Below are positions 4,461 to 56,575 of a stretch of DNA of 64,000 nucleotides, piece by piece. Source of the DNA: Deltaproteobacteria bacterium (GTDB taxonomy: Bacteria > Desulfobacterota > Desulfomonilia > UBA1062). The translations under genes and the position numbers were made by a program. Below the pieces are notes generated by a model. That model searched no databases, had not been told where the DNA came from, and was given only the letters and a program-made list of their open reading frames with translations. Location: positions 1-64,000 of the forward strand of contig WFSG01000018.1 in the NCBI GenBank assembly GCA_015486075.1, given 5' to 3'. Numbering within the stretch: the first letter of the stretch is position 1; every line of letters begins with the position of its first letter.

Positions 4461-5309
4461 GTGAGGGAAAAGGGGAATAGAGAACTCCTTGGCGTTTTCT
4501 GCGTTGGGATTTCTGCATTGGCATTTGCCCTTATGTCAATGTTCATAAAGATAGTGACCCTTCATGGCATTTCCCCGATAGAAGTTGCGTTTGCAAGATT
4601 CCTTGTGGGTTTTGTGATACTCAATGCATTTTACTTGCTAAGGCCAGTTCCGTTGAAGCCCTCAAAGCCTGGATGGGTATATCTCAGGGCCTTTTTTACA
4701 GGTATAGCTGCCATCTGCTTTTTCATAGGCATATCCTCGACCACCCTTGTGAATGCTAACCTTCTCAACATGACCTACCCGGTATTTGTTGCCATGTTAG
4801 CACCTTTCTGGAACAGAGAAACATTCAGTATGTCCAAGGGAATCTCTGTGGCGGTGGCAATGTGCGGTATATACCTGGTGGTTCAGCACAAGTCAGGCTT
4901 TAGCACTGGGGATATATGGGCCCTGTTGTCTGGTATGCTTGCGGCTGGTGGTATATCGTCCTTAAAAGAGGCAAGGATAAAGGATACATCTTTTATTATC
5001 CTTTATTACCTGATGGTATTTGGATTGGTAATGACATCAGTGGCTATGCCTTTTTTTGTGGTGCCAAGCCTAAGAAGTGCATGGTTGCTTGTTTTGATAG
5101 GTGTGTTAAGTCTTGCTGGGCAGTTTTTAATAACCTATGGTTACAGGTATGTTAAGGTTATTGAGGGATCTTTGATATCAACTACAAGAGTAGTATTCGC
5201 TGGTTTGCTTGGCATGTTCGTCTTCTCGGAGTCTATAAACCTTTCTTTTATTCTGGGTGCAGTGCTTATAGCTTTTGCGATCATATGGATACAAGCCCAT
5301 ACCGTCTGA
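4461..5309 (+). CDS. DMT-family (EamA) inner-membrane transporter
   Basis: A 282-residue, very hydrophobic protein with about ten membrane helices arranged as two EamA repeats (roughly 10-140 and 150-280). The family exports small metabolites such as amino acids, purines or nucleotide sugars. The substrate cannot be inferred here. It begins with GTG (MREKGNRELLGVFCVG); the upstream ribosome site is poor. Its last 29 bases overlap the end of the convergent PFK-2/FBPase-2 gene. A proline and lysine-rich cytoplasmic loop (PVPLKPSKPGWVY, about 65-77) precedes helix 3. It forms no operon with neighbours, so context gives no clue to the substrate. Confidence 0.85.
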   Translation: MREKGNRELLGVFCVGISALAFALMSMFIKIVTLHGISPIEVAFARFLVGFVILNAFYLLRPVPLKPSKPGWVYLRAFFTGIAAICFFIGISSTTLVNANLLNMTYPVFVAMLAPFWNRETFSMSKGISVAVAMCGIYLVVQHKSGFSTGDIWALLSGMLAAGGISSLKEARIKDTSFIILYYLMVFGLVMTSVAMPFFVVPSLRSAWLLVLIGVLSLAGQFLITYGYRYVKVIEGSLISTTRVVFAGLLGMFVFSESINLSFILGAVLIAFAIIWIQAHTV

Positions 5310-6510
5310 GCTGAAAGAGCTTTTTGTCCTGTTTTGCTACTATGTGGTAGAATTTATCCTGGGGTACATATATAAAGGGTACGTCTTCTTCCCTCCTGTA
5401 AAGGAAGTGGGCAAGGATCATCCTATTAACCGCCCTATGGCCGATAATCATTATATTATCTGCATTCCTGTTCAGAAATAGGGCTTTTTTTATGCCTGTT
5501 TCTATGCGCTCCCTCATTGTGGCATAACTCTCTCCCCCTGGGTAAACGTAATTGTATTTATCCTTCTTTCGCGTATTGTATATGGTAGGATATTTTTCTC
5601 TTATCTCCTGGTAGGTCATGCACTCGCATATACCTGCATCTATCTCGTTAAATTCCTTTAAGGGTACTATTGTGCATGATCTCTGCATGTCACGTATTGG
5701 TTCTGCGGTCTGGATCGTTCTTTTTTTTTGACTAGTAAATATAAAAGAGATATTCCGGTTTTTGAAAAATTCGGCAAGAGTCACTGCCTGTGTCTTTCCC
5801 CTTTCAGTAAGGGATGGGTCTCCCCCGATTCTGTCTTCTAGGTTGTAGTAAGTCTCTGCATGTCGGATAAGAAAGAGATTTTTTACTATATCAGTAACGA
5901 GAAAATCCCTTATCCTGGAATAGTATGGCAAGGGATCCATCAATTTCTCTCTCAAGATCCTGTTATGGAGAGAATCTAGCTTGATGTAATTTCTCTCTTC
6001 ATAAAGTGGGACGTAGATCATTTCATAATACTTAATCCTTTTTTCGAACTCCTTTAATGCCCTGGCATGATCAAGGTGTTCGAACTCAGGGGTCTTCACT
6101 TTCTGATTAATGCTCAGGCTCAATATTTCCCTGTCGTCATTTACACATTCAATATAAAGGATAGGATGGTCATCCAGGTTTCTTTCGATCATTCTTCTTC
6201 TCTGTGGGCTTGCATTCGTTGCGTCTAGTATGGAGACGTCGCCTCCCCTTCTAAGATAGGTCTTTGCACGATGGATGTTCATCATTGCAAAACGCCTTCT
6301 CATCTCCACACCAGCCTTGTTCTCGGGGCTGTAAAAATCAGCGCTATATGTCTCTTTTGTTGGCCTGTACTTTCTTCTCAGGTTCCCGTTGTTGAATACC
6401 TTTGCATGTATATTATCCCTTCTAAACGTCTCTTGAAGCCTGAATGAGATAGTCGATTTGCCTCTTGCGGGTAGGCCTACCATTACAACGTAAAGCTTAT
6501 TATCTTCCAT
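5281..6510 (-). CDS. Bifunctional 6-phosphofructo-2-kinase / fructose-2,6-bisphosphatase
   Basis: A 409-residue protein matching the eukaryotic PFKFB family along its whole length. The kinase half (1-205) has Walker A GLPARGKS (12-19), the substrate motif FNNGNLRR (39-46), DATN (96-99) and KRIKYYEMIYVPL (157-169). The phosphatase half (about 208-400) has Arg216-His217 (LIRHAET), GRIGGD-like DRIGGD (226-231), Glu289 (NEIDAG) and His358 (IIGHRAV), matching the catalytic His, Glu and His of rat FBPase-2. The reaction makes and removes fructose-2,6-bisphosphate, a regulator of glycolysis and gluconeogenesis in eukaryotes. The mammalian RHGE is RHAE here. There is no ribosome site, and TATAAT lies only 3 bases before the ATG. 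Such genes are reported from some sulfate reducers, but their bacterial role is uncertain. Confidence 0.88.
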   Translation of the reverse strand: MEDNKLYVVMVGLPARGKSTISFRLQETFRRDNIHAKVFNNGNLRRKYRPTKETYSADFYSPENKAGVEMRRRFAMMNIHRAKTYLRRGGDVSILDATNASPQRRRMIERNLDDHPILYIECVNDDREILSLSINQKVKTPEFEHLDHARALKEFEKRIKYYEMIYVPLYEERNYIKLDSLHNRILREKLMDPLPYYSRIRDFLVTDIVKNLFLIRHAETYYNLEDRIGGDPSLTERGKTQAVTLAEFFKNRNISFIFTSQKKRTIQTAEPIRDMQRSCTIVPLKEFNEIDAGICECMTYQEIREKYPTIYNTRKKDKYNYVYPGGESYATMRERIETGIKKALFLNRNADNIMIIGHRAVNRMILAHFLYRREEDVPFIYVPQDKFYHIVAKQDKKLFQLRRYGLVSI

Positions 6511-6582
6511 GTGATTATAGTTACAATGTAATACTTGAAAAGGAAAGACCTATGTCGCTTACCATAGAATCTAGGTCTATTA

Positions 6583-8478
6583 TTACGTAGGCTCCTTGCG
6601 AGGGACATTATCAAAGAAGACCAACAAGTTATATACGCCCCCGTATGCCCATGTGGCCTTTAAGGGGTATCCACTATTTTTAGAAATTTTCATTATTGCA
6701 TCGTTTTCTTTGAGAACCTCTGCCTCAAACCCAACAATGCCATGCTCACGGGCCACCTGTACAAGGTACCAGAGAAGAAATGTTCCAATCCCTGCCTTTT
6801 GGTAATCTCCCCGTACTGTTATTGCCACCTCGGCAAGGTTAGTAGAGGCTTCTCTCACGTACTGTGCAAGGGCTATGATTTCTTCCTTTCCCTCAATTTC
6901 TTCTCTTCCCACGATTCCAACTATGGCCATACGATCTTCGTAGTCTATGCTTGCGATAGGTTGAGCCATCTCGTGAGGGAACGCCTTTATCCTATGGAAG
7001 AATCTTTTGTAAAGGTCCTCGTCGGAGAGGGAATATACCAATTCCTGGATCTTTTTTTCGTCAGTGGGTTTAACTGGTCTGAAAAATATCTCTCTTCCCA
7101 GATTATCGGTCCAGTAGGTCTCATGTCTTTCTGGATAGATAGCACCTGAAGGAAGAATCTGGTCCTTGTAAACATAGCCCTTTATCTTTGCTTCTTCCAG
7201 CAGTGCTGCTCTGTACGAAGGATGGGCTATGCTTATAAGGGCCATGGCCCTCTCCCTGATGGATTTGCCATGCAGGTAGGCAATGCCGTATTCGGTTACC
7301 ACGTAATGGACATCCCCACGGGTCAAGACTACTCCACTACCCTGTTCTAGATGGGGTAATATCCTGGACTTCTTGCCTCCATCAGCTGTAGATGGCATTA
7401 CTATTATGGACTTACCTCTTTCGGAAAGAGCTGCTCCCCTTACGAAATCTACTTGGCCACCTATTCCGCTGTAGAGTAAGTAACCCACAGAGTCGGAACA
7501 TACCTGACCGGTAAGATCCACGCTAAGTGCAGAGTTTATTGAGACCATCTTCCTGTTTTTTGCGATTATATAGGGATTGTTCACGTATTCTACTGGATGA
7601 AACTCGAACATGGGGTTGTTATGTATGAATCGATATAGCTTCCTAGTTCCCATGCAGAAGCTGGCCACAACCTTGCCTACGTGTATGCTCTTTTTACTGC
7701 ATGTGATGCTACCAGATTTTATAAGGTCCATGAGGCTGTCAGTAAAGGTTTCTGTGTGTACACCTAGGTCTTTCTTATCCTTTAAATATGACAACACTGC
7801 ATTGGGTATAGACCCGTAACCTACCTGTATTGTGGATTCGTCCTCCACCAAGTTTGCAACGTACTTGCCAATGCCTTTTGCTATGTCACCTGGATCATCA
7901 ACGATGAACTCCTGTACAGGTTTTTCTGTTTTAACAAAGGCATCTATCTGGGAGACATGTAGAAAGCTATCACCTAGGGTCCTTGGCATGTTCGGGTTTA
8001 CCTCGGCCACAACGTAATCAGCACACTCTGCAGCTGTCTTTGTAAGGTCAACCGATATTCCCAGGCTTACATATCCATGTCTGTCAGGAGGGGTTACAGA
8101 TATGAGCGCCGTATCGATGTGTATCCTTCCCTTGCGAAAGAGCTGAGGTATCTCGGACAGAAACACAGGCGTATAATCGGCATTACCTCTCCATATTGCC
8201 TCTCTTGTATTGGGTCCTATAAAAAATGCATTGTGCCTGAATGCTCTGGAGAAGCGCCGCTCGGTATAAGGAGCATTACCCACTGTGAGGAAGTGCATGA
8301 TCTCAGTATCGGCAAGCTCCATGGACAGATCCATGAGGGTCTCTATTAATAGGGCAGGTTCTCCACAACCGGAACCTATGAACACCCTAGAGCCCCTACG
8401 TATATGCTCAAGGGCTGCTCTTGGCTTTACAAGTCTCTCCCTATAATATTTTTCCCACATATATCCATTGTATAGCAC
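6583..8478 (-). CDS. Acetyl-CoA hydrolase/CoA-transferase fused to a GNAT acetyltransferase domain
   Basis: A 631-residue fusion. Residues about 8-440 form an acetyl-CoA hydrolase/transferase of the 4-hydroxybutyrate CoA-transferase type. The likely covalent Glu243 lies in LGVHTETF, after VGYGSIPNAVL, and the C-terminal lobe carries ESGIG-like YSGIGGQVDFVRGA and TEYGIAYLHGKS. After a linker, residues about 465-620 form a GNAT domain (RPVKPTDE, then AITVRGDYQKAGIGTFLL as the acetyl-CoA loop). The first part moves CoA between carboxylates, and the GNAT part would acetylate an amine or lysine. The GTG at 8478 is the longest start; ATG at 8460 (MWEKYYRE) is an alternative, and neither has a good ribosome site. 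The true acyl substrate is unknown. Confidence 0.85.
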   Translation of the reverse strand: MLYNGYMWEKYYRERLVKPRAALEHIRRGSRVFIGSGCGEPALLIETLMDLSMELADTEIMHFLTVGNAPYTERRFSRAFRHNAFFIGPNTREAIWRGNADYTPVFLSEIPQLFRKGRIHIDTALISVTPPDRHGYVSLGISVDLTKTAAECADYVVAEVNPNMPRTLGDSFLHVSQIDAFVKTEKPVQEFIVDDPGDIAKGIGKYVANLVEDESTIQVGYGSIPNAVLSYLKDKKDLGVHTETFTDSLMDLIKSGSITCSKKSIHVGKVVASFCMGTRKLYRFIHNNPMFEFHPVEYVNNPYIIAKNRKMVSINSALSVDLTGQVCSDSVGYLLYSGIGGQVDFVRGAALSERGKSIIVMPSTADGGKKSRILPHLEQGSGVVLTRGDVHYVVTEYGIAYLHGKSIRERAMALISIAHPSYRAALLEEAKIKGYVYKDQILPSGAIYPERHETYWTDNLGREIFFRPVKPTDEKKIQELVYSLSDEDLYKRFFHRIKAFPHEMAQPIASIDYEDRMAIVGIVGREEIEGKEEIIALAQYVREASTNLAEVAITVRGDYQKAGIGTFLLWYLVQVAREHGIVGFEAEVLKENDAIMKISKNSGYPLKATWAYGGVYNLLVFFDNVPRKEPT

Positions 8479-55541: not shown

Positions 55542-55616
55542 GGCGGCATAGCCAAGTGGTAAGGCGACGGTCTGCAAAACCGTTATTCACCGGTTCGAAT
55601 CCGGTTGCCGCCTCCA
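55542..55616 (+). tRNA. tRNA-Cys (GCA anticodon)
   Basis: A complete 75-base cloverleaf. The acceptor stem GGCGGCA pairs with TGCCGCC, and the anticodon stem ACGGT/ACCGT encloses CTGCAAA with anticodon GCA. The T arm is CCGG-TTCGAAT-CCGG. The discriminator base is T (U73), the identity element of tRNA-Cys, and CCA is encoded (55614-55616). Confidence 0.97.
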
Positions 55617-55636
55617 GTAAATGGTTGTGGATTTTT

Positions 55637-56575
55637 ATGCCCAGATTACAAAAGTCTATCTTCATCTGCTCTATCTGTTTTTTTATTCTGGCTAATACAC
55701 TGCCAGCCTTTGCAGCAAAGCCAGCAGTAGATTTCGGGTTAGAAACAGGCTATCTAAGAGGCAATACCACCTATGATATTACGCTGGGCACAGGTACTAG
55801 TGAACTTAAATGGCCACTAGATATGTATATGGCTGGTTTCACCTATTCCTGCTCATACAAAGATTTTGGTTTTAGGGTCTCTTATCTCAAGGCACCATCT
55901 AGGAAATACGGCACATCCTTGGAGGACACCGATTTAGACTTAAGAGTTGGTAGCTCCAACAGACTAATATACTCCGAGACCGAGCTAAAGGCAGAAGGTA
56001 ATATTGCAAATATAGGTGCCCAGCTTTTCCTTGTACAATATGATCACAACACTTTTGGACTAAGAGCTGGCTACAATTATCATTCCTTCTCTTATTCGGG
56101 ATATGATACATCGCAGGTAACACTGGGGTCCGCTTCTAGCGGAATGTTTGTACCCGGGCGTGTGATTTACTACAAGGTGAATTACGGATCCTTGTATATG
56201 GGTTTTGAATACAGGTTAAAATTGCCTGGACACATATACGCGTATGCCATGCTTGATTACAGCCCCAAGGCAAGGGCAAGGGACGAAGATGATCATTTCG
56301 TACGCTACAAGTTAAGCCGTGGCAACTGCACTGGAGATGCTGTATATATAACAATGTCGGCAATGTACACCTTTGGCAATGGCTGGAGTGTATACGTAGA
56401 TGGCATGTATAGCCGTATAAGGACCAATGGCGAGCAGGATCAGGTATGGTATGGTGATGATCCGGGTACACTCTTTAATGAAACCGGCTTTGCCATTATT
56501 GGCATTAACCAAGATATAGACATGGACTTGGGATATATAGGTATTGGCCTTGTATATTCGTTCCAGGTGGATTAA
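55637..56575 (+). CDS. Exported beta-barrel protein of unknown function
   Basis: A 312-residue protein with a clear signal peptide (about 5-26, ending AFA). The rest alternates short strands rich in Tyr, Phe and Gly, such as FGLRAGYNYHSFSYSG, SLYMGFEYRLKLPG and YIGIGLVYSFQVD, the pattern of an outer-membrane beta barrel. No family is recognised. The reading frame runs upstream through tRNA-Cys without a stop, but the ATG at 55637 begins the signal peptide and is the sensible start. It has no ribosome site and no visible promoter of its own, so it may be read through from the tRNA. Function cannot be inferred. Confidence 0.72.
   Translation: MPRLQKSIFICSICFFILANTLPAFAAKPAVDFGLETGYLRGNTTYDITLGTGTSELKWPLDMYMAGFTYSCSYKDFGFRVSYLKAPSRKYGTSLEDTDLDLRVGSSNRLIYSETELKAEGNIANIGAQLFLVQYDHNTFGLRAGYNYHSFSYSGYDTSQVTLGSASSGMFVPGRVIYYKVNYGSLYMGFEYRLKLPGHIYAYAMLDYSPKARARDEDDHFVRYKLSRGNCTGDAVYITMSAMYTFGNGWSVYVDGMYSRIRTNGEQDQVWYGDDPGTLFNETGFAIIGINQDIDMDLGYIGIGLVYSFQVD

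Follow-up and report, generated by a model that had tools for sequence, protein, structure and literature searches.

Fructose-2,6-bisphosphate (F26BP) is treated as a eukaryotic regulator. The mammalian enzymes PFKFB1-4 join an N-terminal 6-phosphofructo-2-kinase (6PF2K) domain to a C-terminal histidine phosphatase domain, and carry N- and C-terminal regulatory extensions. A 2026 preprint regards F26BP control of phosphofructokinase (PFK) as eukaryote-specific (PMC12873801), and our literature search found no paper on a characterized bacterial PFK-2/FBPase-2. A sentence in PMC9721465, citing Rider et al. 2004, places the metabolite throughout eukaryotes and describes it as absent from bacteria except Desulfovibrio desulfuricans. 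That exception concerns the same metabolite and the same broad bacterial group (Desulfobacterota) as the gene described here, but it is a secondary mention. The initial annotation of the present locus had held that a role for F26BP in bacteria is not established; given that sentence, bacterial occurrence, at least, is not wholly unknown.

We analyzed a window of 64,000 nucleotides from a Deltaproteobacteria bacterium (contig WFSG01000018.1), in which an open reading frame at 5281-6510 begins with ATG and encodes a protein of 409 amino acids. The initial annotation had described this product as PFKFB-like over both halves; its coordinates were exact, and the strand, which it left unstated, is minus, as for all features of this gene given below. 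Residues 2-194 (5929-6507) matched the 6PF2K domain (Pfam PF01591; E = 1.2e-39; 136.4 bits against a cut-off of 27), and residues 212-387 (5350-5877), the putative fructose-2,6-bisphosphatase, matched the histidine phosphatase domain (PF00300, His_Phos_1; E = 8.2e-39; 133.7 bits against a cut-off of 21.7). The protein thus has the two domains of PFKFB1-4 in the same order, as a catalytic core only, without a mammalian-type regulatory extension at either end. Its best solved relative was human PFKFB3 (9e-69 over residues 6-384), collinear across both halves, followed by the remaining mammalian PFKFBs. An AlphaFold2 model (mean pLDDT 83.6) gave a consistent picture: the first 26 PDB matches found by Foldseek were all PFKFB chains, matched at full length, and both domains adopted the fold of the PFKFB crystal structures. 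The overall TM-score to PFKFB was low (approximately 0.48) because the model places the domains differently relative to each other, an arrangement to which we attach no meaning; the phosphatase half by itself reached a TM-score of 0.86 to rat liver FBPase-2. The Pfam, PFKFB3 and Foldseek matches all lie far beyond chance. Clustering with an unrelated kinase-phosphomutase fusion, which would have spoken against the assignment, did not occur, as domain order and spacing follow PFKFB. We conclude that the gene encodes a real and probably active bacterial PFK-2/FBPase-2, an assignment that the sequence comparisons back at every point but one, the substrate loop described below.

We next aligned 59 bacterial proteins with PFKFB3, taking the residues of the fructose-6-phosphate pocket from a study of PFKFB3 inhibitors (PMC3177832). 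Every motif named in the initial annotation (GLPARGKS, FNNGNLRR, DATN, RH, DRIGGD, NEIDAG and GHRAV) was present in the 409-residue protein. In the kinase half, the Walker A loop GLPARGKS (residues 12-19; 6454-6477) aligned to G41-T48 of PFKFB3; FNNGNLRR (residues 39-46; 6373-6396) supplied the pocket arginines R45/R46, equivalent to R74/R75; DATN (96-99) and a following arginine (together residues 96-104; 6199-6225) corresponded to D124, T126 and R132; and RIKYY (residues 158-162; 6025-6039) corresponded to R189 and Y193. The Walker A lysine and R74, R75, R98, D124, T126, R132, R189 and Y193 (PFKFB3 numbering) were all identical in our protein. Across the alignment, R74, R75, R98, D124, R132, R189 and Y193 were invariant in 59/59 proteins, so that 7 of the 9 PFKFB3 pocket residues did not vary, compared with 21 of the 186 kinase columns (p = 3e-6). 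K168 was likewise invariant (59/59), T126 was threonine in 55/59 relatives, and T48 of the P-loop was serine in most of the 59 as well as in our protein. As a separate observation, the arginine of the Walker A loop gives way to glutamine in ten relatives (GLPSQGKS is one form); the window protein lacks this shared variant.

In the phosphatase half, RHAE (residues 216-219; 5854-5865) contains the predicted phosphate-accepting histidine, H217, and is followed by DRIGGD (residues 226-231), NEIDAG (288-293) and GHRAV (357-361). R257, H258, N264, R307, E327, Y338, R352, K356 and H392 (rat-liver numbering) were present in 59/59 proteins; this set includes R257, H258, R307, E327 and H392, which we take to be the catalytic residues. 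R307 corresponds to R264 of our protein (5719-5721), and is arginine in all 59 bacterial members at a position where PFKFB3 has Ser302. H358-R359 (5434-5439) comprises the second catalytic histidine (H358, equivalent to H392) and an arginine that replaces Gln393. The substrate loop (residues 314-322; 5545-5571) retains R314 and K318, equivalent to R352 and K356, and has V322 in place of R360. Compared with PFKFB1-4, our protein keeps the P-loop, the fructose-6-phosphate pocket, the phospho-histidine, the acid/base residues and most of the substrate loop; it differs in having Ser for Thr48, V for R360 and R for Q393, as well as the arginine opposite Ser302 of PFKFB3. Among the bacterial relatives, Y338, R352 and K356 of the loop were kept in 59/59, R360 was mostly V or I, and Q393 was Arg in 52/59; we would guess that the arginine gained at 393 may compensate for the one lost at 360. 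A literature search on these FBPase-2 loop residues found no relevant paper. The initial annotation had drawn attention to the change from RHGE to RHAE beside the catalytic histidine. We found that RH is invariant (59/59) and that the next position varies, with G in 42, T in 16 and A in the window protein alone; this change looks minor and does not bear the weight it was given.

The replacement of R360 in nearly all bacterial members, and of Q393 by arginine in most, speaks against a function in F26BP metabolism. It would fit a family that keeps the PFKFB fold and mechanism but acts on another substrate, such as another ketose phosphate, and makes a different 2-phosphorylated signal or intermediate. 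The modest identity to PFKFB3 (38.8% over 366 columns, and 34-39% overall) could be read in the same way, as could the resemblance of the phosphatase half to enzymes of the CobC and phosphoserine phosphatase (PspA) type, which share the histidine phosphatase fold. However, those phosphatases have no kinase half and are much less similar: scores were 96.2 bits for the cobC model (NCBIfam cut-off 162.9) and 79.9 for the PspA model (cut-off 350), and the phosphatase half matched the rat liver FBPase-2 chain 1c7z (2.8e-37) far better than it matched CobC (2.7e-9). A change of substrate is further opposed by the selective invariance of the fructose-6-phosphate pocket, and by carriage that tracks an F26BP-responsive class of enzyme, as described below; we consider it rather unlikely. 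Where the initial annotation had left the choice between F26BP and another substrate open, pocket invariance, a complete phosphatase active site and co-carriage with class I fructose-1,6-bisphosphatase (FBPase) favor F26BP, and we hold it highly probable, from the residues kept, that the protein both makes and removes this metabolite. In eukaryotes, many isoforms favor one of the two activities, and the alanine of RHAE and the valine at R360 could weaken the phosphatase; the enzyme might therefore be monofunctional or vestigial, with one activity lost. This seems improbable, as the catalytic residues of both halves are kept in 59 proteins from nine families, including R307, which PFKFB3 itself lacks, and the open reading frame is intact and retained in 10/10 genomes of its own family.

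The gene had also been described as standing alone, which is not quite the case. A co-oriented gene (6583-8478, minus strand), whose product joins an acetyl-CoA hydrolase/CoA-transferase to a GNAT domain at the C-terminus, ends 72 bp before the ATG. At its 3' end, the PFK-2 gene shares 29 bp with a convergent, plus-strand gene for an EamA transporter. The CoA-transferase resembles butyryl-CoA:acetate CoA-transferase, scoring below the cut-off for that enzyme, and its acetyltransferase part is Pat-like. The nearest relative (G131) likewise has it upstream of the PFK-2 gene. We considered a conserved operon within the family and rejected it: the only recurring neighbors were the CoA-transferase, directly upstream in the window's genome (G000) and in G131, and the response-regulator/TPR gene described below, and they gave no hint of function. 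The TATAAT box noted 3 bases before the ATG is present (6514-6519, minus strand; TTTTCA-16-TATAAT, 10/12), but little weight can be placed on it as a promoter. Transcription would start 6-8 nt downstream of the box, inside codons 1-2; the region contains 9 promoter-like sites, compared with 8.6 +/- 2.9 in shuffled sequences; and the box is missing in the nearest relative (L001), in which the position of the ATG is conserved. On grounds of geometry, background rate and non-conservation, the box is probably not the promoter for this start codon.

Other neighbors were recorded as well. A convergent response-regulator/TPR gene lies directly downstream in 7/10 genomes of the family and is absent beside the window copy. 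An omptin-family outer-membrane protein is encoded at 55556-56575 (plus strand; Pfam 2.6e-9), approximately 49 kb from the PFK-2 gene; in the family, 9 further genomes have omptin relatives much closer, no more than approximately 4.4 kb downstream of PFK-2, and the window copy shares 31% identity with that of L006 (9721-10677, minus strand). The neighbors in two other families, f16 (AroB-like and sulfate adenylyltransferase) and f41 (TyrS, EF-Ts and S2), were judged by eye to be housekeeping genes and set aside.

To place the gene among bacteria, we used six peptide patterns, matched exactly, to scan 84,980 species genomes and obtained 41 loci, all titled Deltaproteobacteria, Thermodesulfobacteriota or families within them; such a scan finds close relatives only, and may have missed carriers in other phyla. 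In an even sample of 297 genomes from the window's phylum, Desulfobacterota, we found a strong 6PF2K match in 42, from nine families, including 10/10 genomes of the window's own family. Tblastn yielded no match in plasmids; among phages, two Listeria records matched, in the phosphatase fold alone, and no relative was found in viral contigs. A maximum-likelihood tree sorted the proteins according to the families of their hosts, and the total of family changes was as low as it could be. Family f32 was nested inside f1, which suggests one transfer. Human PFKFB3, the sole eukaryote in the tree, sat on a very long branch, and judged with this single eukaryote an ancient transfer between domains may have run in either direction. 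The initial annotation had proposed phylogeny as the means of separating transfer from vertical descent; within Desulfobacterota the answer is vertical descent, with the eukaryotic side represented by PFKFB3 only. A recent gift from a eukaryote, with no settled function in the bacterium, is what one might suppose of a family best known from eukaryotes whose best PDB matches are PFKFBs. Such an origin is very improbable in view of a deep bacterial clade that spans nine host families with so few changes of family, and of universal carriage within the window's own family. Judged by this tree, the gene is old and vertically inherited within Desulfobacterota, rather than a recent capture.

If the protein makes F26BP, what might the metabolite act upon? 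In mammals and Leishmania, class I FBPase is inhibited by F26BP, which competes at the active site (PMC6400660, PMC5639204), and a 2007 paper cited in this literature treats, by its title, inhibition of mammalian and bacterial FBPase by AMP and F26BP together. We found class I FBPase (PF00316) in 42/42 carriers of the PFK-2/FBPase-2 gene but in only 129/255 non-carriers among the 297 genomes (p = 1e-11, a value weakened by shared ancestry, for which it is not fully corrected). The safer comparison at the level of families gave 9/9 versus 44/86 (p = 0.004). The window's genome encodes one class I FBPase (around G000:C12:20405-20971), which scores above its NCBIfam cut-off. Families f34 and f50 include seven genomes whose FBPase gene shares the strand of the PFK-2 gene and is found 2.1-4.3 kb upstream of it, with opposite-strand genes separating the two; in the window's own family, FBPase is not adjacent. 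The intervening block, seen at eight loci of f34 and f50, encodes on the opposite strand a BI-1-like membrane protein, a radical-SAM protein and an ApaH/PrpE-like phosphatase (names assigned by eye). Because all 42 carriers have class I FBPase, and because the genes lie 2-4 kb apart in two families, class I FBPase is our best candidate for the target, a choice that we put at only slightly less than an even chance.

The alternative is that F26BP is made and broken down but acts mainly on a PFK, either of the pyrophosphate-dependent (PPi) type or of the PRK06830 ATP-dependent type. Plant PPi-PFK is activated by F26BP, and the 2.3 Mb genome encodes three PFKs, two with the GGDDT...PKT signatures of the PPi type and one ATP-PFK of the PRK06830 type. 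Sampled carriers have PFKs of the PPi or the GGDGS...PKT type, and wherever both signature motifs of a carrier's PFK were legible, lysine occupied the PPi-type position. However, we rejected PFK presence as a co-occurrence signal: PFK was found in 265/297 Desulfobacterota genomes, and is thus near-universal and uninformative, which is why we prefer FBPase. In addition, no PFK was found near the PFK-2/FBPase-2 gene in the carrier neighborhoods, and the bacterial PPi-PFKs characterized so far are described as non-allosteric (PMC12203962). We therefore regard a PFK as an unlikely main target.

Together, these results are best explained by a vertically inherited F26BP enzyme with class I FBPase as the best candidate for its target, an explanation that we consider probable as a whole. 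We propose that the N-terminal P-loop kinase would transfer a phosphate from ATP to O-2 of fructose-6-phosphate, and that the C-terminal histidine phosphatase would remove it by way of a phospho-histidine at H217, with the participation of H358 and E289. The product would most likely inhibit class I FBPase, as in animals, such that a plentiful supply of hexose phosphate would hold back gluconeogenesis; F26BP may also affect the genome's PFKs, but this is less likely than an effect on FBPase. Because the mammalian regulatory tails are absent, the balance between kinase and phosphatase may be set by metabolites or by expression.

What makes these findings of interest is where the gene occurs and how closely its carriage is tied to class I FBPase, a pattern that singles out a target open to testing. 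An enzyme with an intact fructose-6-phosphate pocket and phosphatase active site is carried by approximately 1 in 7 of the sampled Desulfobacterota species, never without class I FBPase; because carriage of the family is always accompanied by this enzyme, both the use of F26BP by bacteria and its target are directly testable. That an F26BP circuit operates across a phylum of anaerobes, mainly on class I FBPase rather than on PFK, is a tentative proposal, which we rate at somewhat below even. It would bear on the origin of the F26BP signal and on how the anaerobes of this phylum switch between sugar breakdown and synthesis. If it is true, then F26BP control of gluconeogenesis would not be a eukaryotic invention, or would have been anciently exchanged between domains.
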